DNA from: Gammaproteobacteria bacterium
GTDB taxonomy: Bacteria; Pseudomonadota; Gammaproteobacteria; SZUA-229
DNA: 64,000 bases
Direction of reading: 5' to 3'
Assembly (NCBI GenBank): GCA_026195255.1
Contig: JAPHSS010000011.1
Location: 1 to 64,000 of the forward strand
The stretch's first letter is position 1, and each line of letters begins with the position of its first letter. Positions 26,815 through 56,812 of this stretch are shown here, in pieces. Under the pieces are notes generated by a model. That model saw only the letters and a list, made by a program, of their open reading frames with translations, was not told the DNA's origin and did not search any database. The position numbers and the translations under genes are program-made.

Positions 26815-26846
26815 AAAGGGAAAGGCCATGGTCTTTCCCTTTTTTA
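26815..26846 (+). terminator. Intrinsic terminator after rplT
   Basis: AAAGGGAAAG and CTTTCCCTTT form a 10-bp stem around GCCATGGT and are followed by T residues. It ends the thrS-rplT transcription unit before pheS. Confidence 0.8.
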
Positions 26847-26850
26847 TGTG

Positions 26851-26932
26851 CAGGACGTACGGTATTTTGAAAATGCAGGAGCAATTTTTGTGTACAGGAC
26901 GTATGGTATTTTGAAAATGCAGGAGCAATTTT
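26851..26932 (+). repeat. Tandem direct repeat before pheS
   Basis: Two 38-bp copies starting CAGGACGTACGGTATTTTGA (26851) and CAGGACGTATGGTATTTTGA (26895), period 44 bp, differing by one base. They lie between the rplT terminator and pheS. No role is evident. Confidence 0.65.
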
Positions 26933-32000: not shown

Positions 32001-32077
32001 CGGGGCGTAGCGCAGTTTGGTAGCGCACCACACTGGGGGTGTGGTGGTCACAGGTTCAAATCCTGTCGTCCCGACCA
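32001..32077 (+). tRNA. tRNA-Pro(GGG)
   Basis: A 77-nt tRNA with acceptor CGGGGCG/CGTCCCG, discriminator A and encoded CCA. Anticodon stem CCACA/TGTGG with loop CTGGGGG (anticodon GGG, proline CCC/CCU); T arm CAGG-TTCAAAT-CCTG. It marks the left border of the AT-rich biosynthetic cluster. Confidence 0.95.
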
Positions 32078-32363: not shown

Positions 32364-33350
32364 ATGAGATCAATAGAGATTGTAGGTTCAGGTATTGCTC
32401 TGCCCAAACGAGTTGTAAAATCATCGGAAATTGATAAACAACTAGGCTATAAAAGTGGGCAAATAGAAGCCATTTCCGGTGTGTTTTCCCGCTACTACGC
32501 AACCACTGAGTCTGCCACAGATTTAGCTATAGCGGCTGTTTTTGAAGCATTTTCCAATACCTCTGTTACCTTACAGGATGTTGAATGTATTATCGCAGCC
32601 AGTGGAACAATGGAGCAGGCTATACCATGTAATGCGGCGAAAATTCACGCAAGGTTAAATTTGAGCAATCCTATTCCAGCATTTGACATCAATATGACCT
32701 GCTTAAGTGCGCTGATGGCTTTAGATTTAGCTGCTTCCATGATTATGAGTGGCCAATATAAGGTAATCCTCATTGTGTCATCTGATATTGCATCTGTTGG
32801 TATAGACTTAAAAGACAGAGAAACTGTGGGATTATTTGGTGATGGAGCTGCTGCACTGGTAGTTACTGAAAGTAGTGTTCCTGATAAGGGGATTTTGGTT
32901 TCTCATTTTGCAACCTACAGCGAGGGTATTAATTACTGCCAAATTCAGGGAGGTGGGAGCTTGAATCATCCTTCTAAGGTTAATACTGATTATAAAAAGT
33001 ATGGCATCTTTGAAATGCAGGGTAAGGAAATTTTTCGCTTAACTGCAAAGGTTATTGATGACTTTATAATTAAGTTATTCTCAGGCCTTCCATATTCACT
33101 AAATGACATTGACTGGGTTGTGCCTCACCAGGCTAGTGCACTCGCAATAAGCCACCTCCAGAAACGATTAAAAATCCCCACAGATAAGATAATTAATATT
33201 TTGAATTCACGTGGAAATCAGATAGCAGCTTCACTACCGTCGGCACTGCATGAACTAATAATAAGTGGTAAAGCTAGTGCAGGAGATAAGGTCTTACTTA
33301 TTGGTACGTCTGCTGGTTTAAGTATTGGTGGGATGATATTGGTCTTGTGA
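32364..33350 (+). CDS. KASIII-type condensing enzyme (FabH/OleA-like)
   Basis: The 328-residue thiolase-fold enzyme keeps the Cys-His-Asn triad of 3-oxoacyl-ACP synthase III: Cys113 in DINMTCLSAL, His255 in VVPHQASAL and Asn285 in RGNQIAASLP. Such enzymes condense an acyl-CoA or acyl-ACP starter with a malonyl or acyl partner. It is not in a fatty-acid operon; it opens a seven-gene coupled cluster, which points to secondary metabolism. Its stop codon overlaps the next start (TGATG). Substrates unknown. Confidence 0.88.
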   Translation: MRSIEIVGSGIALPKRVVKSSEIDKQLGYKSGQIEAISGVFSRYYATTESATDLAIAAVFEAFSNTSVTLQDVECIIAASGTMEQAIPCNAAKIHARLNLSNPIPAFDINMTCLSALMALDLAASMIMSGQYKVILIVSSDIASVGIDLKDRETVGLFGDGAAALVVTESSVPDKGILVSHFATYSEGINYCQIQGGGSLNHPSKVNTDYKKYGIFEMQGKEIFRLTAKVIDDFIIKLFSGLPYSLNDIDWVVPHQASALAISHLQKRLKIPTDKIINILNSRGNQIAASLPSALHELIISGKASAGDKVLLIGTSAGLSIGGMILVL

Positions 33351-34330
33351 TGAAAGCAATTGTAACTGGAGCAACTGGTTTTTTAGGGTCGCATTTAGTT
33401 TCTATACTGGAACAAAAGCACTATGAAGTTATTGCACTTGGTCGAGATGCTAATAAGGGGGCTGCGTTAGCATCAAAAAATATTGTATTTAAATCTATGG
33501 AAATTACAGATAAGCATTCTGTAGATTCAGTATTTGAGTGTGCTGATGTTGTGTTTCACTGCGCTGCACTTTCGAGTGTGTGGGGAAGTCCTGAAGACTT
33601 CGAACTTGTTAATGTTCAAGGTACCCAAAATGTTCTTGAATGTTGTGAAAAGTGGTCAGTAAAAAAGTTAGTATATGTATCCTCCACCAGTGTATATTTT
33701 GACTACAGAGATAAAACCAATATTAAGGAAAGCGAAAGTTTGCATCATGGTTTTGTTAATAACTATGCTAGAACTAAATATCAAGCAGAAGTGCTTTTGC
33801 TAACAGAGAAGAAAAATACTGAAGTAGTGATAATACGTCCACGTGGCATTATAGGAGATGGTGATACTTCTATAATGCCAAGAATATTAAGAATTGCGGA
33901 TAAAGGATTCTTTCCTCTTATTAACAAGGGTCAAGCAACTGTAGATTTAACCTATGTTAAAAATGTTGCACATGCGCTGATTCTTGCAGGGGAGAAATTA
34001 AACATTAATGGTAAATGTTTCAATATTTCAAATTTTGAGCCATTAAGTGTTAAGGAATTACTTCAAAGAGTTCTTAAAGCACGAAAAAAGAAATGCAGTT
34101 TGGTTCCTGTTGATTACAGATTTATGTATGGGATAGCCAAGTTGATGGAGGTTATTTCAATAAGATTGTCTTTGGGAGAACCTAGTATCACATGTTACGG
34201 TGTTGGTCTATTAGCAAAAACGCAAACATTGGATATTGAAGCGGCTAAAAATGTATTAGGCTATGAGCCGGTCTATTCAATGGATTATGCAATAGAAAAA
34301 TATCTGGAGTGGGAAAGTAAGGATGCTTAA
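33350..34330 (+). CDS. NAD-dependent epimerase/dehydratase-like extended SDR
   Basis: The 326-residue Rossmann protein has the extended-SDR glycine motif GATGFLGSH near the N-terminus, a VSSTSVYFD serine region and the catalytic YARTK. The sequence is closer in style to 3beta-hydroxysteroid dehydrogenase/OleD-type reductases (VIIRPRGIIGDGD, VDLTYVKNVAHAL) than to sugar epimerases. It could reduce the beta-keto product of the condensing enzyme (inference). Start ATG 33350 (GTG 33347 also possible); it overlaps the next gene by 8 bp. Confidence 0.85.
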   Translation: MKAIVTGATGFLGSHLVSILEQKHYEVIALGRDANKGAALASKNIVFKSMEITDKHSVDSVFECADVVFHCAALSSVWGSPEDFELVNVQGTQNVLECCEKWSVKKLVYVSSTSVYFDYRDKTNIKESESLHHGFVNNYARTKYQAEVLLLTEKKNTEVVIIRPRGIIGDGDTSIMPRILRIADKGFFPLINKGQATVDLTYVKNVAHALILAGEKLNINGKCFNISNFEPLSVKELLQRVLKARKKKCSLVPVDYRFMYGIAKLMEVISIRLSLGEPSITCYGVGLLAKTQTLDIEAAKNVLGYEPVYSMDYAIEKYLEWESKDA

Positions 34331-35147
34331 GCTATTAAAAGTAGGGCACTGTTTTCATCCAGAAGCGATGGTGATGAAAGGACATTCCTGGCAGTCAATG
34401 CAGTTTCCTGCAATTGTTGGTTTGATTAAGCACCCACAAAAAGGGTATGTTTTATTTGATACAGGATACGCTAAACGTTTCAAGCAGGAAACCGAACGAT
34501 TTCCCGAGAGATTCTATCGCTGGTTAACCCCTTTTCACATATGTGAAAAGGAGAGCCTTGTTTATCAACTATCTCAGCTTAATATTGGCGCTGATGAAAT
34601 TAATGCGATATTTATTTCACACTTTCATGCGGACCATATATCAGGTTTATTAGATTTCCCTAGCGCATCATTTATATGTTCGAAGGTTGCATTGGACACT
34701 TTTATCAGTTTAGGGCGTATAAAAGGTTTAATTAAAGGCTATTTGCCAAAATTGTTACCTAGTGATTTTGTTAAACGGTGTAGTTTCATAGAGGATACTA
34801 AAAAAATAATAATTAGAAATAAGTATGCTCCTTTTTCCGCAGGGTATGATGTTTTTTCAGATGGTGGATTTATAGCTATTCCGCTGCCTGGTCATGCTGT
34901 AGGTCAATTTGGATTACTACTGGAGAGTAGTGGGAAATCTTGCTTTTTGATAGGAGATGCCTGTTGGACAAGAGAAGCATACCAGGAAGGTGTAAGACCA
35001 AACATACTAACGTATGCAATTATGGACAATGGTAAGCAATATTTAGAAACCCTGGATAAACTTTCGCAAGTATATTTATCAAATAAAAAGATACAAATTA
35101 TACCTTCTCACTGTCAGTTATCTTTTGAGTCATTTAAAAGTGGGTAA
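34323..35147 (+). CDS. Metallo-beta-lactamase-fold hydrolase
   Basis: The 274-residue protein has the zinc motif HFHADH (His100, His102, Asp104, His105). Further ligands follow in GHAVGQFG, IGDACW and a C-terminal PSHCQ. Members include lactonases, thioesterases and glyoxalases. In this cluster a thioester- or lactone-hydrolysing step is plausible but unproven. No signal peptide is seen, so cytoplasmic. It overlaps the preceding gene by 8 bp. Confidence 0.85.
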   Translation: MLKLLKVGHCFHPEAMVMKGHSWQSMQFPAIVGLIKHPQKGYVLFDTGYAKRFKQETERFPERFYRWLTPFHICEKESLVYQLSQLNIGADEINAIFISHFHADHISGLLDFPSASFICSKVALDTFISLGRIKGLIKGYLPKLLPSDFVKRCSFIEDTKKIIIRNKYAPFSAGYDVFSDGGFIAIPLPGHAVGQFGLLLESSGKSCFLIGDACWTREAYQEGVRPNILTYAIMDNGKQYLETLDKLSQVYLSNKKIQIIPSHCQLSFESFKSG

Positions 35148-35160
35148 GCAACTGAAGAAA

Positions 35161-36426
35161 ATGATAGCTTTTATTAGAGGCTTTATTAATGCAAAGCTAG
35201 GTTCAAAATTGTCTCGTGAAAAAATTGAAAAGATTCAACAAACTCGGTTTAATAAACTTCAAAGGGAAGCTTTATCTACATCTGAATTTTACTCATGTTA
35301 CGTTAATAAACCTTTAGATGAATATCCAGTTATCAGAAAAGCTATTCATGTAGAAAATTTCAATATAATTAATACCGCTGGGCTTGATAAAGATACCGCA
35401 TTTGAGATTGCAATAGCTTCAGAAAAAAGCCGAGACTTTACGCCTGACTATAAGGGGTTTTCTGTAGGATTGTCTTCGGGGACTAGTGGGAATCGAGGGT
35501 TGTTTGTAACTTCTGTTGAAGAGCGAGCACAATGGGCTGGATATATTATTGGTAAGCTTTTGCCATTTCGTTGTGGAAAGCATCGAGTGGCTTTCTTTCT
35601 TAGGGCAAATAATAATCTTTATGAAAGTTCAAATGGAATACTTCTTATCTTTAAGTTTTTCGATTTGATTGATGGTCTTAATAAGAATATCAAAAAACTG
35701 GTGAAATTTAACCCAACAATATTAATTGCTCCAGCTAGTGTGCTTCTTAAGATCATAGAGAAAAAACCAAAAATTAATCCAGTAAAAGTAATAGCTATTG
35801 CAGAAGTTTTAGAGGCTTCTGATAAGAGGCTACTCGAATCATATTTCCAACAGAAAATACATCAGATTTATCAATGTACAGAAGGTTTTGTAGCAGCAAC
35901 GTGTTCTGAGGGAAATCTGCATCTTAATGAAGATGTTCTAATCATTGAAAAGAAGTGGATAAATCAGGAGAGTGGTCGATTCTCTCCGATTCTGACAGAT
36001 CTTAAAAGAGTTACTCAGCCCGTTATTCGTTATTACCTAGATGATATATTGATAGAGGATAAAGCTCCCTGTGCATGTGGCTCAAACTTTACGAGATTAA
36101 AAGCCATTGAGGGGCGTAAAGATGATATTTTCTATTTACGAAATAATCGTAATGAGCTGATTGATGTTTTTCCTGATTTTATCAGAAATTCACTAATTAT
36201 TGTCTCTGCTGAACTAATAGAGTATCAGGTTATTCAATCTGAGAAGAATAAATTAGTAATTTATATATTACCTTTCAATGAAGTAATTCGTAAAAATATA
36301 TCTTCTGCACTTGATGAACTATTTAATCGATTAGATGTTCTGATCCCTCAATATGAATTCGATGAATTTAAAGTCATCGATAACGGTAAAAAAAGACGAC
36401 GCGTAATGAGGCAGATTGATGGCTAA
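35161..36426 (+). CDS. Adenylate-forming enzyme (F390 synthetase/PaaK-like)
   Basis: The protein (about 421 residues) shows the phosphate-binding loop SSGTSGNRG, an acyl-adenylate core region YQCTEGFVAATC and a C-terminal sub-domain with CACGSNFTRLKAIEGRKDD. It is similar to coenzyme F390 synthetase-related and phenylacetate-CoA ligase proteins. It would activate a carboxylate as AMP ester for transfer to a thiol, amine or alcohol. ATG 35161 is used here; a TTG at 35125 would overlap the MBL gene by 23 bp. The Cys pair CACG may bind metal. Confidence 0.8.
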   Translation: MIAFIRGFINAKLGSKLSREKIEKIQQTRFNKLQREALSTSEFYSCYVNKPLDEYPVIRKAIHVENFNIINTAGLDKDTAFEIAIASEKSRDFTPDYKGFSVGLSSGTSGNRGLFVTSVEERAQWAGYIIGKLLPFRCGKHRVAFFLRANNNLYESSNGILLIFKFFDLIDGLNKNIKKLVKFNPTILIAPASVLLKIIEKKPKINPVKVIAIAEVLEASDKRLLESYFQQKIHQIYQCTEGFVAATCSEGNLHLNEDVLIIEKKWINQESGRFSPILTDLKRVTQPVIRYYLDDILIEDKAPCACGSNFTRLKAIEGRKDDIFYLRNNRNELIDVFPDFIRNSLIIVSAELIEYQVIQSEKNKLVIYILPFNEVIRKNISSALDELFNRLDVLIPQYEFDEFKVIDNGKKRRRVMRQIDG

Positions 36427-37558
36427 ATTACTTATTACGGGTGCAAGGGCACCTGTTGCTCTGGAGTTGGCAAGAAATTTACACGGACATGGCCATCAGG
36501 TGATTATGGTAGATTCACTGCTGTATCCGTTAGCACGAAACAGTAAGGCAATAAACCAGTTTTATAAAATACCTGGTCCCAGAGAGAACCTTGAAGGATT
36601 TAGAAAAAATCTTTTATTGATAATTCAACAAGAAAATGTTGATTACTTGATTCCTACCTGTGAAGAAATATTTTATATCTCATTTATAAAAAATGAGCTT
36701 GATAGATTCTGCCAGATCATTTGTCCGGACTTTGATTTAATCACCAAGTTTCACAGTAAAATTGAAATATTGAACTTGTGCACGAATAAAGGAGTGGGAA
36801 TACCGTCTACGAAAATTGTTGATAAGTCAAATTTGAAAGAATTTTCTGAAATTAAGAACATTATTGTTAAAAAAGAGTTTTGCCGATTCGGCACTGATGT
36901 ATTGCTTAATCCAACACGTAAAATGATAAAAGATGCAGTTGATAAAAATGATGGGCGAATTTTATTGCAAGAAAAAATTGTAGGTGTCGAGTATTGCACT
37001 TATGCCATTGTAAATAATGGAACTGTGTATGCTGAGGCTATCTATGAGCCATCTCATAGAATAAGGCTTGCTGCAGGCATCTATTTTAAGCCGATAATAA
37101 ATGATGCTATATCAAAATTTGTAAAAGATTTTTGTAAGGAGTACCAGTTTACCGGACAAATCGGATTTGATGTAATTGTTGCAAATGATATTGTCTATGT
37201 TATTGAGTGTAATCCCCGTACGACCAGCGGTGTTCACTTGTTACAGGAGGCTGATTTATTCAAAGCCTTTATTGGTAGGAATATACAAGAAATAAAACAA
37301 AGTGATAAAGCAAGCATGATAGGCCTGGTAATGCTTTTGATAGGAATACCAATAGCCATAAAAAAAAATAAACTCAGTCAATGGTGGTCAGATTACTCAT
37401 CAGCCAGAGATGTGATTAACTTGAAAAAGGATAAGAGCTTTATGCTTTTCAAATTTTTATCATTGGGGGAATTATTAGTGATTTCTCTCAGAAAGAAGGT
37501 GTCTATTAGGCAAGCTTCAACTATGGATATAGAATGGGACGGAGAAGAAATTAAGTAA
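36419..37558 (+). CDS. ATP-grasp ligase
   Basis: The 379-residue protein begins with a Rossmann-like preATP domain (LLITGARAPVALELARNLHG) and continues with ATP-grasp elements: IIVKKEFCRFGTDV, the GRILLQEKIVGVEYCTYAIV strand, and the Mg-binding QIGFDVIVANDIVYVIECNPR. ATP-grasp enzymes join a carboxylate to an amine via acyl phosphate. With an adenylate-forming enzyme next door, this suggests an amide-containing product (inference). The start overlaps the preceding stop by 8 bp, and the stop overlaps the next start (TAATG). A hydrophobic helix near 305-320 is possible. Confidence 0.82.
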   Translation: MAKLLITGARAPVALELARNLHGHGHQVIMVDSLLYPLARNSKAINQFYKIPGPRENLEGFRKNLLLIIQQENVDYLIPTCEEIFYISFIKNELDRFCQIICPDFDLITKFHSKIEILNLCTNKGVGIPSTKIVDKSNLKEFSEIKNIIVKKEFCRFGTDVLLNPTRKMIKDAVDKNDGRILLQEKIVGVEYCTYAIVNNGTVYAEAIYEPSHRIRLAAGIYFKPIINDAISKFVKDFCKEYQFTGQIGFDVIVANDIVYVIECNPRTTSGVHLLQEADLFKAFIGRNIQEIKQSDKASMIGLVMLLIGIPIAIKKNKLSQWWSDYSSARDVINLKKDKSFMLFKFLSLGELLVISLRKKVSIRQASTMDIEWDGEEIK

Positions 37559-38673
37559 TGTTAATTCAACTTCGTTCACCTATTTCTGAAGCCGTAAGTC
37601 CTGCAGATGAATATTTGATGGGTTTTCTCGATAAAACTGAAGCAATGATTACCAATGTAAAAACAGAAGTGGGTTGTTGTCAGATAGATGATGTGGTTTT
37701 ACCTTTTACAATAAATGAAGCAGAATATGATAATAGTTATGTTTGCTCACCCTATACAGCATTGATACCCTATTGCATTGAGGAATTAGGGAAACTGGAT
37801 AATTGGTTATTGAGAATAGGTGTTGAAAAGTTAATATTGATTTTTGATAGAATACTTAAAAAGAATAATATCAATCGAGTTATACATATCAATAATTGGT
37901 TGTTATCTACTAACCTATATCCACAAAAAGATAAAGCTCTAAATATCGAATCGCTCATTGAAGGAATTACACGTCAATACAAAAATCATACTGTTATTTT
38001 TCGCTCATTAAATTATTTTCTAAATCCTGCGCTCATATCTGAATTTATGTCAGCAGGCTGTATGATCGTGCCGACAAGGCAGGTGTATCTTTATTATAAA
38101 TCTTTAAACGACTACAGTAAAACACATAATTATAAAGTTGATAAAAAATTAATTGAAAAAACAGAATATCAATATGTTAAACAATCAGATATTAATGAGT
38201 CAGATTATGCTCGTATAGTTGAATTATATAATATGCTATATATTAATAAATATTCGAAGCACAATCCACAATTTACAATCCAATATATAGCGGTAATAAT
38301 TAAACACCCGTTGTTCTACGTGGAAGGGTTTCGAAATATTCACGGAATACTTGATGCTGTGGGAGGCAGATTTACTATTGCAAATACAACTACCTTACCA
38401 ATAGTTGGTTATGACACATCTAAACCTGCAAAACTAGGTTTATATCGTATGGTTCTTATGTCTGCATTGCTCTATTCTGAGAGAAATAATTATTGCTTCA
38501 ATGCAAGTTCTGGAGCACCTCATTTTAAAAAATTAAGGGGTGCTGTTCCTCATATCGAATATTCAGCTGTATATATAAAACACCTTTCTGCTCATTCTCA
38601 ATGTATCTGGAAGGTACTGGCTTATATTATGCGTAAATTGTTTGTACCTATTATGAAAAAGTATCAGTTATGA
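37558..38673 (+). CDS. Unassigned cluster protein, possible GNAT/FemAB-type acyltransferase
   Basis: The 371-residue protein matches no family I can name with certainty. The segment from about 225 to 350 (LGLYRMVLMSALLYSERNNY followed by CFNASSGAPHFKKLRGAVP) resembles the acceptor half of FemAB/GNAT-fold acyl- or aminoacyltransferases, where SSG..HFKK..GA-like motifs occur. The N-terminal half is Asn/Ile/Tyr-rich, with no signal peptide. It is coupled to both neighbours (TAATG upstream, ATGA downstream), so it belongs to the pathway. Confidence 0.6.
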   Translation: MLIQLRSPISEAVSPADEYLMGFLDKTEAMITNVKTEVGCCQIDDVVLPFTINEAEYDNSYVCSPYTALIPYCIEELGKLDNWLLRIGVEKLILIFDRILKKNNINRVIHINNWLLSTNLYPQKDKALNIESLIEGITRQYKNHTVIFRSLNYFLNPALISEFMSAGCMIVPTRQVYLYYKSLNDYSKTHNYKVDKKLIEKTEYQYVKQSDINESDYARIVELYNMLYINKYSKHNPQFTIQYIAVIIKHPLFYVEGFRNIHGILDAVGGRFTIANTTTLPIVGYDTSKPAKLGLYRMVLMSALLYSERNNYCFNASSGAPHFKKLRGAVPHIEYSAVYIKHLSAHSQCIWKVLAYIMRKLFVPIMKKYQL

Positions 38674-39662
38674 TATCTGAGTTTAAAAATAGTGAATGGA
38701 CTGTCGTTACAAGTTCAAAAGAACTTAAGAAAACACCCATACGTGTCTTTTTTCATGATGTACCTGTAGTCTTATTTCGAGGTGAGAATCATTTGTGTGC
38801 TTTGAAAGATCAATGTCCACATCGGGGGGCTCCACTTTCAATGGGACAGGTGTGTAATGACTCAATTGTTTGCCCATATCATGGTTGGAAGTTTAATGGT
38901 GCTGGTGAACATTTAGAAATGCCAGGAAACCCTTGTTTTTCTAAAACCAAACAAGACATAGTGCAGTCTTATGAAGTAGCAGAAGAGGCTGGACTTATTT
39001 GGCTTCGACTGAAGAGTGATTGTGTTAGTCGCCGTTATATTCCACAAATTCACTCTAACTATTCATTTTATACTGTAACTACAAGTATAAAAGCAGATAT
39101 TATTGATATATCTGAAAATTTTCTTGATGCTTTACATACCCATTTTGTTCATTCGGGTATCATTCGCTCGAGGAACAAAAGACGACACAATTGTGCGGTT
39201 ACTATTACTAACGTTAAAGATGGTTATCAAGCAACTTACATTGAAGAAAACCAGCAATCAGGGATTATCAGTCAATTATTTGGAAAGCATATTTATAAGA
39301 GCGTTGGCCGAATAAGGTTCCCCGGCATTATTGAGATTGAATACTATTCTTCTAAGGGTATTGAGCTTTCGACTGTTATATATGTAAATAAAGAACAGGG
39401 TGATAAGTGTAAGTTGATTGTGAGAAATTATTTAAAGAAACAAAGAATACCTTTCTTTATGCTAGTGTCAGTATTGTTTCCATTTCAATATCTAGCTTTC
39501 AAACAAGACAAGCTCATACTAGAAGAACTTCATAAGTCTAATAAAGAAGATCTATTATATAAGCCAATAATTACTCAGTATGATGTAATGCGACCTTATA
39601 TAGAAAAAGCTTTAAGAAATGAGATTTGTGATGTCAAAGTTCAACATAATTTGATGTTATAG
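38670..39662 (+). CDS. Rieske non-haem iron oxygenase
   Basis: The 330-residue protein has a Rieske [2Fe-2S] site with Cys49-X-His51 and Cys68-X2-His71 (CPHRGAPLS, CPYHGWKF). A mononuclear-iron site in the C-terminal domain shows the ENFLDALHTHFVH pattern (Asp153, His156, His161). Such oxygenases hydroxylate, demethylate or cleave using electrons from a ferredoxin/reductase supplied elsewhere; none is encoded here. It is the last gene of the coupled cluster (4-bp overlap upstream) and probably tailors the product. Confidence 0.87.
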   Translation: MISEFKNSEWTVVTSSKELKKTPIRVFFHDVPVVLFRGENHLCALKDQCPHRGAPLSMGQVCNDSIVCPYHGWKFNGAGEHLEMPGNPCFSKTKQDIVQSYEVAEEAGLIWLRLKSDCVSRRYIPQIHSNYSFYTVTTSIKADIIDISENFLDALHTHFVHSGIIRSRNKRRHNCAVTITNVKDGYQATYIEENQQSGIISQLFGKHIYKSVGRIRFPGIIEIEYYSSKGIELSTVIYVNKEQGDKCKLIVRNYLKKQRIPFFMLVSVLFPFQYLAFKQDKLILEELHKSNKEDLLYKPIITQYDVMRPYIEKALRNEICDVKVQHNLML

Positions 39663-55933: not shown

Positions 55934-56812
55934 ATGGAACAAGCACAACTAAAAAATATCATAGAGGCTGTTTTACTGACTGCAGATCAGCCAATGGACA
56001 TGCGTAAGCTGGAAGCGGTTTTTGAAGCAGATGAAGAGCAGCGTCCGAGTAGAGATAATATTCTTCAGGCACTGGAAGATTTACAATCCGATTACGAAGG
56101 TCGTGGTATTGAGCTAAAAGAAGTGGCCAGTGGTTACCGAATGCAGGTGGAGCCATCCAATGCACCCTGGGTGTCACGGATGTGGGAGGAGAAACCGCCT
56201 CGTTATTCCAGGGCTTTACTGGAAACTCTGGTGCTTATTGCATATCGACAGCCTATTACTCGTGGTGAAATTGAAGAAATTCGCGGTGTAAGTGTTAGTT
56301 CTCATATAGTTAAAACACTTACGGAACGTGAGTGGGTAAGGGTTTTGGGGCATAAAGATGTGCCAGGACGTCCATCTATGTATGGCACAACCCGTGATTT
56401 TCTTGATTACTTTAATCTTAAAAGCCTGGATGAGTTACCTGGTCTTGCTGATATTACTGATCTCGATAAATTACACCCGGAACTGGCGCTTGAGCAGGAA
56501 GTGGCTGCGGATGATGGCGCTGTAGAGAAGAGTGAGTCTGATAATCAGGAAATATCAGATACTTCAGATACGTCAGAAACGTCAGAAACGTCAGAAACGT
56601 CAGAAACGTCAGAAACGTCAGAAACTTCAGAAACTTCAGAAACTTCAGAAACTTCAGAAACTTCAGAAACTTCAGAAACTTCAGAAACTTCAGCGATTCC
56701 AGTCGAAAAAGCTGATAATGAGCTTGAAAATGCTATAACTTCGGAAAATGAGCAGGAAATGGAAGAAAATTCTAGCAGGAATGAGAGTGAAAAAGAGCCT
56801 GTAATTAACTAG
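55934..56812 (+). CDS. scpB: Segregation and condensation protein B with SET-repeat tail
   Basis: The 292-residue protein has two winged-helix domains in the first about 180 residues (IIEAVLLTADQPMDMRKLEA, LIAYRQPITRGEIEEIRGVS, GRPSMYGTT). It then adds an unusual acidic tail with 13 consecutive Ser-Glu-Thr tripeptides encoded by a 9-bp tandem repeat. The folded part is normal ScpB, the dimeric kleisin partner of ScpA. The tail is probably disordered. rluB, which often follows scpB, is instead about 3.9 kb away. Confidence 0.93.
   Translation: MEQAQLKNIIEAVLLTADQPMDMRKLEAVFEADEEQRPSRDNILQALEDLQSDYEGRGIELKEVASGYRMQVEPSNAPWVSRMWEEKPPRYSRALLETLVLIAYRQPITRGEIEEIRGVSVSSHIVKTLTEREWVRVLGHKDVPGRPSMYGTTRDFLDYFNLKSLDELPGLADITDLDKLHPELALEQEVAADDGAVEKSESDNQEISDTSDTSETSETSETSETSETSETSETSETSETSETSETSETSETSAIPVEKADNELENAITSENEQEMEENSSRNESEKEPVIN
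56573..56692 (+). repeat. 9-bp coding microsatellite in scpB
   Basis: Thirteen units of TCAGAAAC(G/T)(T/G-type) encode Ser-Glu-Thr. The first five have ACG for Thr and the next eight ACT. Two homogeneous blocks indicate separate expansions by slippage. Length changes stay in frame. Confidence 0.9.

Follow-up and report, generated by a model that had tools for sequence, protein, structure and literature searches.

A modular gene cluster shared across bacterial phyla, and its seven-gene form in a gammaproteobacterium, possibly for a modified lipid

The gene cluster

The subject of this study is a cluster of seven genes, here called A to G, at positions 32364-39662 of a 64,000-base stretch of gammaproteobacterial DNA (contig JAPHSS010000011.1, assembly GCA_026195255.1) that we refer to as the window. 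Read directly from the sequence, the seven are intact open reading frames (ORFs), all on the + strand, co-directional and tightly packed. A preliminary description of the window had treated them as one coupled biosynthetic set. Comparison with other genomes upholds that view of a single conserved unit, and refines it as regards the identity of F, the affinities of A and the modular construction of the whole.

In order, A (32364-33350) encodes a condensing enzyme of 328 amino acids of the 3-oxoacyl-acyl carrier protein (ACP) synthase III (KASIII) type, B (33350-34330) an extended short-chain dehydrogenase/reductase (SDR), C (34323-35147) a metallo-beta-lactamase (MBL)-fold hydrolase of lactonase or thioesterase type, D (35161-36426) an F390/PaaK-like adenylate-forming ligase, E (36419-37558) a PRK06849-like ATP-grasp ligase, F (37558-38673) a tandem-GNAT transferase, of the aminoacyl-tRNA-dependent type to judge by its predicted fold, and G (38670-39662) the terminal component of a Rieske oxygenase. 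The two carboxylate-activating enzymes of the preliminary description are D and E, and as it also held, there is no carrier protein, polyketide synthase (PKS) or non-ribosomal peptide synthetase (NRPS) among A to G (Pfam, NCBIfam).

The junctions are close throughout. A and B meet at TGATG, the best start for B being ATG 33350 because it agrees with the MK..TGATGFLG start of its relatives, and B and C overlap by 8 bases. D and E also overlap by 8 bases, with E read from ATG 36419, the E/F junction is TAATG and the F/G junction ATGA. All of these had been listed before; the junction left out of that list, between C and D, is a gap of 13 bases if D starts at ATG 35161, which we prefer because the listed TTG 35125 lies 5' of the starts of its relatives.

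Distribution and modular construction

In a scan of one genome per species at least 592 stretches matched, 582 of them encoding D relatives; the best 80 were fetched, and the comparison of loci covers 88 loci. The core A-B-C-D occurs in about ten phyla, and all four of its genes are nearby in 76 of the 88 loci. The exact order A-B-C-D-E-F-G is found, besides the window, at eight loci in two phyla, namely in Pseudoalteromonas, four Shewanella, Arcobacter, Sulfuricurvum and gammaproteobacterium 39-13. Paenibacillus castaneae has the order A-E-B-C-D-E-F-G and Flavivirga E-F-G-B-C-D-A, and at 31 loci, mostly of Bacilli, A to F are present without G, usually as A-E-B-C-D-F. The unit is modular, with A-B-C-D as the core, E and F as one optional addition and G as another. 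The co-occurrence across genera that the preliminary description had looked for as support is thus found, over phyla as well as genera and often in the same order.

The core is also present in Fusobacterium, Neisseria and Streptococcus, and in Escherichia coli strains Nissle 1917, CFT073, ABU 83972 and ATCC 25922. In the E. coli copy that we read (L037, 6140-13018) it sits between narI and purU, and among 5,426 complete E. coli genomes 672 (12%) have the D gene of this copy. In plasmid records searched at the protein level, D has the same partners beside it in Pontibacillus, Paenibacillus, E. coli, Paracoccus and Ketogulonicigenium; a Fusobacterium "plasmid" record with D is 2.1 Mb long and presumably a chromosome. 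Two Pseudomonas megaplasmids, pMPPla107 (L041) and pBASL58 (L042), carry D and E among many hypothetical genes, and pBASL58 has A, B and C as well.

In the D tree the window falls within a gammaproteobacterial clade with support of 100/100. Elsewhere Campylobacterota are interspersed with Pasteurellaceae and Neisseriaceae, as transfer would give, though changes of label on a tree are by themselves no proof of it. Pairwise distances in each of the other genes are correlated with those in D (Mantel rho 0.73 for A, 0.80 for B, 0.54 for C, 0.67 for E, 0.56 for F and 0.40 for G), and for no gene did any of 500 permutations give a value as high. The shared order in two phyla, the other orders in more, the correlation of distances and the confinement of F to genomes with D, described below, together show that the set far exceeds chance.

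Full-text literature searches, mostly outside subscription journals, found no paper on the gene set and no characterised product, in agreement with the preliminary description, which knew of no characterised pathway with these genes. A ladderane paper that names an F390 synthetase was set aside, as it concerns a different cluster, for type II fatty acid synthesis. The enzyme families are known, but a pathway that combines them across phyla does not appear to have been described in the literature searched. We thus have a pathway in about ten phyla and 12% of complete E. coli genomes without a product in the open literature searched, and as the four-gene core is small, intact and present in tractable laboratory strains, the question of its product can be put directly to experiment.

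The core enzymes

For residue conservation each family was aligned from the fetched loci, with 16-85 relatives per family and numbering from the listed ORF starts. Known catalytic residues of A, B, C, D, E and G are conserved at 93% or more across these alignments, so that the intact catalytic residues seen earlier in the window copy are kept in the relatives too. The roles given to these residues are those established for the families.

A is over the cut-off for PF08541 and PF08545 (Pfam) and its Cys113-His255-Asn285 triad is invariant in 74 relatives, which places it in the KASIII/FabH superfamily. Among NCBIfam models it scores 360 bits with NF005541 (PRK07204), under the cut-off of 402, 224 with the FabH-type PRK09352 and 111 with PRK09258 (3-oxoacyl-ACP synthase III). 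By sequence its best solved relatives are CorB (E 8e-52) and MxnB (E 1.5e-51), of the corallopyronin and myxopyronin pathways, followed by FabH (7e-43), and identity is 35.4% with CorB against 33.2% with Aquifex FabH. The commonest form of the active-site motif among the 74 sequences is TCLSF, of which CLS is common to CorB and MxnB, and the GGGS..HP motif is also in common. From these comparisons A seems slightly nearer to the chain-joining ketosynthases CorB and MxnB than to housekeeping FabH. However CorB and MxnB work on PKS/NRPS-bound chains, and A to G include no such system.

The nearest named family for B is OleD (2-alkyl-3-oxoalkanoate reductase), with 204 bits for NF042423 and 193 for NF042422 against a cut-off of 580, and the next model is HpnA at 133 (NCBIfam). 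Its nearest solved structures in a sequence search are SDRs of the sterol-4-alpha-carboxylate dehydrogenase type, and Tyr140 and Lys144 are conserved. C matches PF00753 (47.7 bits, Pfam), its NCBIfam relatives are N-acyl-homoserine lactone lactonases and its nearest solved relative by sequence is the lactonase GcL. The full two-metal site is present, with His100, His102, Asp104, His105, His191, Asp212 and His263 conserved in 83 relatives.

D clearly belongs to TIGR02304, "F390 synthetase-related protein" (454.2 bits, cut-off 251.9, NCBIfam), a family without assigned function, and has no Pfam match. Structure prediction, which had been proposed as a check, was run for D and F. The AlphaFold2 model of D (mean predicted local distance difference test, pLDDT, 91.9) is closest to the folds of PaaK-family ligases, including NatL2, AjiA1 and ClxA, and a profile search of solved structures likewise finds PaaK. 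The residues of the SSGTSG loop, Thr252-Glu253-Gly254, Asp292, Arg331 and Lys423 are conserved.

Genes E and G

E is over the cut-off for PF02655 (30.8 bits, Pfam) and scores 358 bits with NF005315, for which the cut-off is 406 (NCBIfam). Its profile matches structure 2pn1, and Lys115, Lys152, Glu264 and Asn266, numbered from TTG 36416, are conserved. G matches PF00355 (73 bits, Pfam) and its nearest solved relatives by sequence are SxtDIOX and SxtT. Cys49, His51, Cys68, His71, Asp153, His156, His161 and Asp280 are conserved in 16 sequences, and with its CxH/CxxH cluster and His-His-Asp iron site G is a Rieske non-haem iron oxygenase.

Gene F

F had been described only as acyltransferase-like, and this can now be made more precise. 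No Pfam family is reported for it, PF02388 (FemAB) included, although relatives at other loci reach PF13480, and searches of PDB sequences with F alone or with an F profile found nothing useful. The AlphaFold2 model (pLDDT 93.9) is a tandem GNAT, and its top whole-length fold matches (Foldseek, VIA-align) are Sbb17/Sba18 (Z 17.0), FemX (Z 16.7) and MprF (Z 15.4); against Sbb17, FemX and MprF the alignments have Z of 14-17 over about 250-280 residues, with root mean square deviations mostly of 3.6-4.2. Sbb17 and Sba18 are the aminoacyl-tRNA-dependent peptide synthases of streptothricin. Lys324 of F is invariant in 52 sequences, and the residue before it is Phe in 50 of them and Tyr in two.

The catalytic lysine of FemX is Lys305, and DhpH-C has the pair Phe328-Lys329 (PMC12945691). 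The alignment ranges, residues 4-357 of the model to 1-337 of FemX, put Lys324 about one residue from Lys305, a match that is made from position and motif. An FK pair is in a like place in two Streptococcus FemAB-family proteins. F thus resembles FemABX, MprF/aaPGS, DhpH-C and Sbb17/Sba18 in its whole-length tandem-GNAT fold and in a Phe-Lys pair near the C-terminal end, but differs from the FemABX/MprF group in having only about 10% identity and no fused flippase domain, and in sitting with A to E. The predicted structure is that of a tandem-GNAT protein for which the nearest solved folds are aminoacyl-tRNA-dependent transferases and in which the active-site Phe-Lys pair is kept, and from the model we infer that F may itself use aminoacyl-tRNA. 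If so, it would represent a new branch of tRNA-dependent aminoacylation of lipids or metabolites.

Some relatives of F match the coenzyme A P-loop motif just before the Phe-Lys pair; the window copy does not, and we do not take the motif as coenzyme A binding. In Shewanella one or two extra F paralogues follow G (L047, L048 and L055, 12600-16290; L046, 12693-15091), accompanied by a serine beta-lactamase-fold protein or an LplT-like major facilitator superfamily (MFS) transporter.

Dependence of F on the core

When 299 genomes of the phylum were searched blind, with F as the only query, it turned up, apart from the window genome, in two distant genomes of another order, and in each the genes A to D, F and G are in a row with E divergent alongside. 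A second sample of 249 genomes gave no further F. Of 247 Paenibacillaceae genomes 83 have F and 94 have D, and every one of the 83 with F is among those with D (Fisher p 4e-54, a value that ignores the relatedness of the genomes), although in 21 of the 83 F is more than 50 kb from D or on another contig. Co-occurrence without linkage is a good indication of functional dependence rather than hitch-hiking, and argues for F depending on the core. E is nearby in 45 of the 46 loci with F.

Neighbouring genes and the product

The genes adjoining the core at other loci give some guide to the class of product. The E. coli core has as neighbours a PAP2 phosphatase, a fatty acid hydroxylase and an acyl-CoA desaturase, and there is a desaturase beside the core in Crocinitomix. 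A GT21/HpnI-like glycosyltransferase adjoins it in Fusobacterium and Paenibacillus caui, a macrolide-type glycosyltransferase in a metagenome-assembled genome of Campylobacteraceae, and sulfotransferases in Bacteroidota, Paracoccus and Ketogulonicigenium, while the Shewanella surugensis cluster includes an MFS protein resembling LplT, which transports lysophospholipids. A hydroxylated lipid whose head groups can be exchanged would call for such genes, and a lipid or lipid-like product is therefore favoured. GH18, EamA, an NRPS beside the Paracoccus copy and transposases were taken as chance neighbours and left out as parts of the cluster.

Our preferred interpretation, which we hold tentatively and at rather less than even confidence, is that A to G as a whole are a laterally acquired cluster whose product is a modified acyl chain, most probably a lipid of the membrane or for export. 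A would give a beta-keto product by condensing a fatty acyl thioester with either malonyl-ACP or another acyl chain, B would reduce this to the beta-hydroxy form, C would hydrolyse a thioester or lactone to the free acid and D would activate the acid as an acyl-adenylate for formation of an ester, amide or thioester. E and F could then attach an amino acid as head group, with F taking it from aminoacyl-tRNA in the manner of FemX and MprF, and G may hydroxylate or desaturate the product. This order of steps is taken from the enzyme classes. That the clusters with E and F make a lipid or lipid-like compound with an amino-acid head group is a suggestion to which we give similar, incomplete confidence. 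A broader proposal, which we consider rather unlikely as it stands, is of a so far undescribed, cross-phylum class of bacterial lipids with a condensed beta-hydroxyacyl core made by A to D and exchangeable heads, these being amino acids from aminoacyl-tRNA in some (E-F) and sugars or sulfate elsewhere, with a core variant in E. coli B2-type strains.

Several observations weigh against the lipid interpretation or the role that it gives to F. Solitary F genes in Paenibacillaceae (L171-L174) have none of A to E or G nearby, and the GH18, EamA or unrelated genes beside other copies mean that some neighbours are there by chance. A is only slightly closer to CorB than to FabH (35.4% and 33.2% identity). 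GNAT folds are common, with single GNAT domains scoring Z 12-14 in the same match list, F and its best matches have TM-scores of only 0.39-0.48, and a profile comparison of F with Streptococcus FemAB-family proteins, two sequences only, gave no informative match.

Alternative interpretations

A diffusible specialised metabolite acting as antibiotic or signal, for instance an acylated peptide or an amino-acid conjugate, with a short acyl chain on which E and F assemble a small peptide, would account for the streptothricin peptide synthases being the best fold matches of F, for the saxitoxin-pathway hydroxylases being the nearest solved relatives of G, and for the patchy, accessory spread of the genes (1 of 54 genomes of the order, 672 of 5,426 in E. 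coli); ATP-grasp ligases also make peptides in natural product pathways. We nonetheless think it doubtful, as a resistance gene and a dedicated exporter are absent within the cluster and the decorating genes at other copies act on lipids. The same lipid-type accessory genes make a third possibility quite improbable, that of an aromatic pathway like that for the Pseudomonas quinolone signal (PQS), with D loading an aromatic acid, A extending it with malonyl and C as a PqsE-like thioesterase. The pqsABCDE system does bring together the same enzyme classes (ligase, KASIII and MBL-fold thioesterase), PaaK relatives of D often accept aryl acids and A matches PqsD weakly, but PqsE is missing among the matches of C at E 0.01, SDR, ATP-grasp, GNAT and Rieske proteins replace PqsB/C, and A to G include no genes for supply of an aryl acid.

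The possibility that the cluster is a counterpart of OleABCD overlaps with our preferred interpretation, differing from it in the chemistry of A and D: A would join two acyl chains head-to-head, B reduce the product, D form a beta-lactone and C open or convert it, with E, F and G as modifying enzymes. Both systems have in one operon a thiolase-fold condensing enzyme, an OleD-like SDR, an adenylate-forming ligase and a hydrolase, so that the roles of the core mirror those of OleA, OleD and OleC with a hydrolase; both OleD models are the nearest named families for B, and A is nearest to the chain-joining CorB and MxnB. However B is far under the OleD cut-offs (204 and 193 of 580), the PRK09258 score of A is only 111 bits against 224 for the FabH-type PRK09352, and D is in the PaaK clade. 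The hydrolase here has the MBL fold, with no alpha/beta-hydrolase of the OleB type among A to G (Pfam), the ligase is PaaK/F390-like and the condensing enzyme FabH/CorB-like, and the ATP-grasp, tandem-GNAT and Rieske genes are additions. We think this counterpart unlikely.

Genomic setting of the window copy

The cluster starts 287 bases past a tRNA-Pro(ggg) gene (32001-32077, + strand), and its G+C content is 34.9% compared with about 40% in each flank. The tRNA-Pro gene is kept in four sister genomes, but the DNA after it differs between them: sister G002 has an integrase and, about 9 kb downstream, 57 bases of the tRNA 3' end in a second copy, in G003 an RND (resistance-nodulation-division) operon for heavy-metal efflux follows, and the retrieved contigs of G001 and G004 stop soon after the tRNA gene. 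In this genus the tRNA-Pro gene serves as an insertion site of variable content. None of the four sisters has F, and of 54 genomes of the order only that of the window does; with the variable content after the tRNA gene this makes the cluster an accessory insert beside tRNA-Pro, most likely acquired laterally. A second tRNA-Pro 3' end, as would mark an attachment site, was sought downstream within the window and none was found, and PHROGs gave no phage link besides generic matches to the SDR and hydrolase. Promoter and terminator scans did no better than on shuffled sequences.

Two repeats may also be recorded. A 44-base repeat is present in two copies at 26841-26932 of the window, downstream of a ribosomal protein gene, and a sequence like it lies directly after tRNA-Pro at the contig end of sister G004. 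At 56555-56693 there is a tandem array of a 9-base unit, TCAGAAACT, in 15.4 copies with 97% matches.

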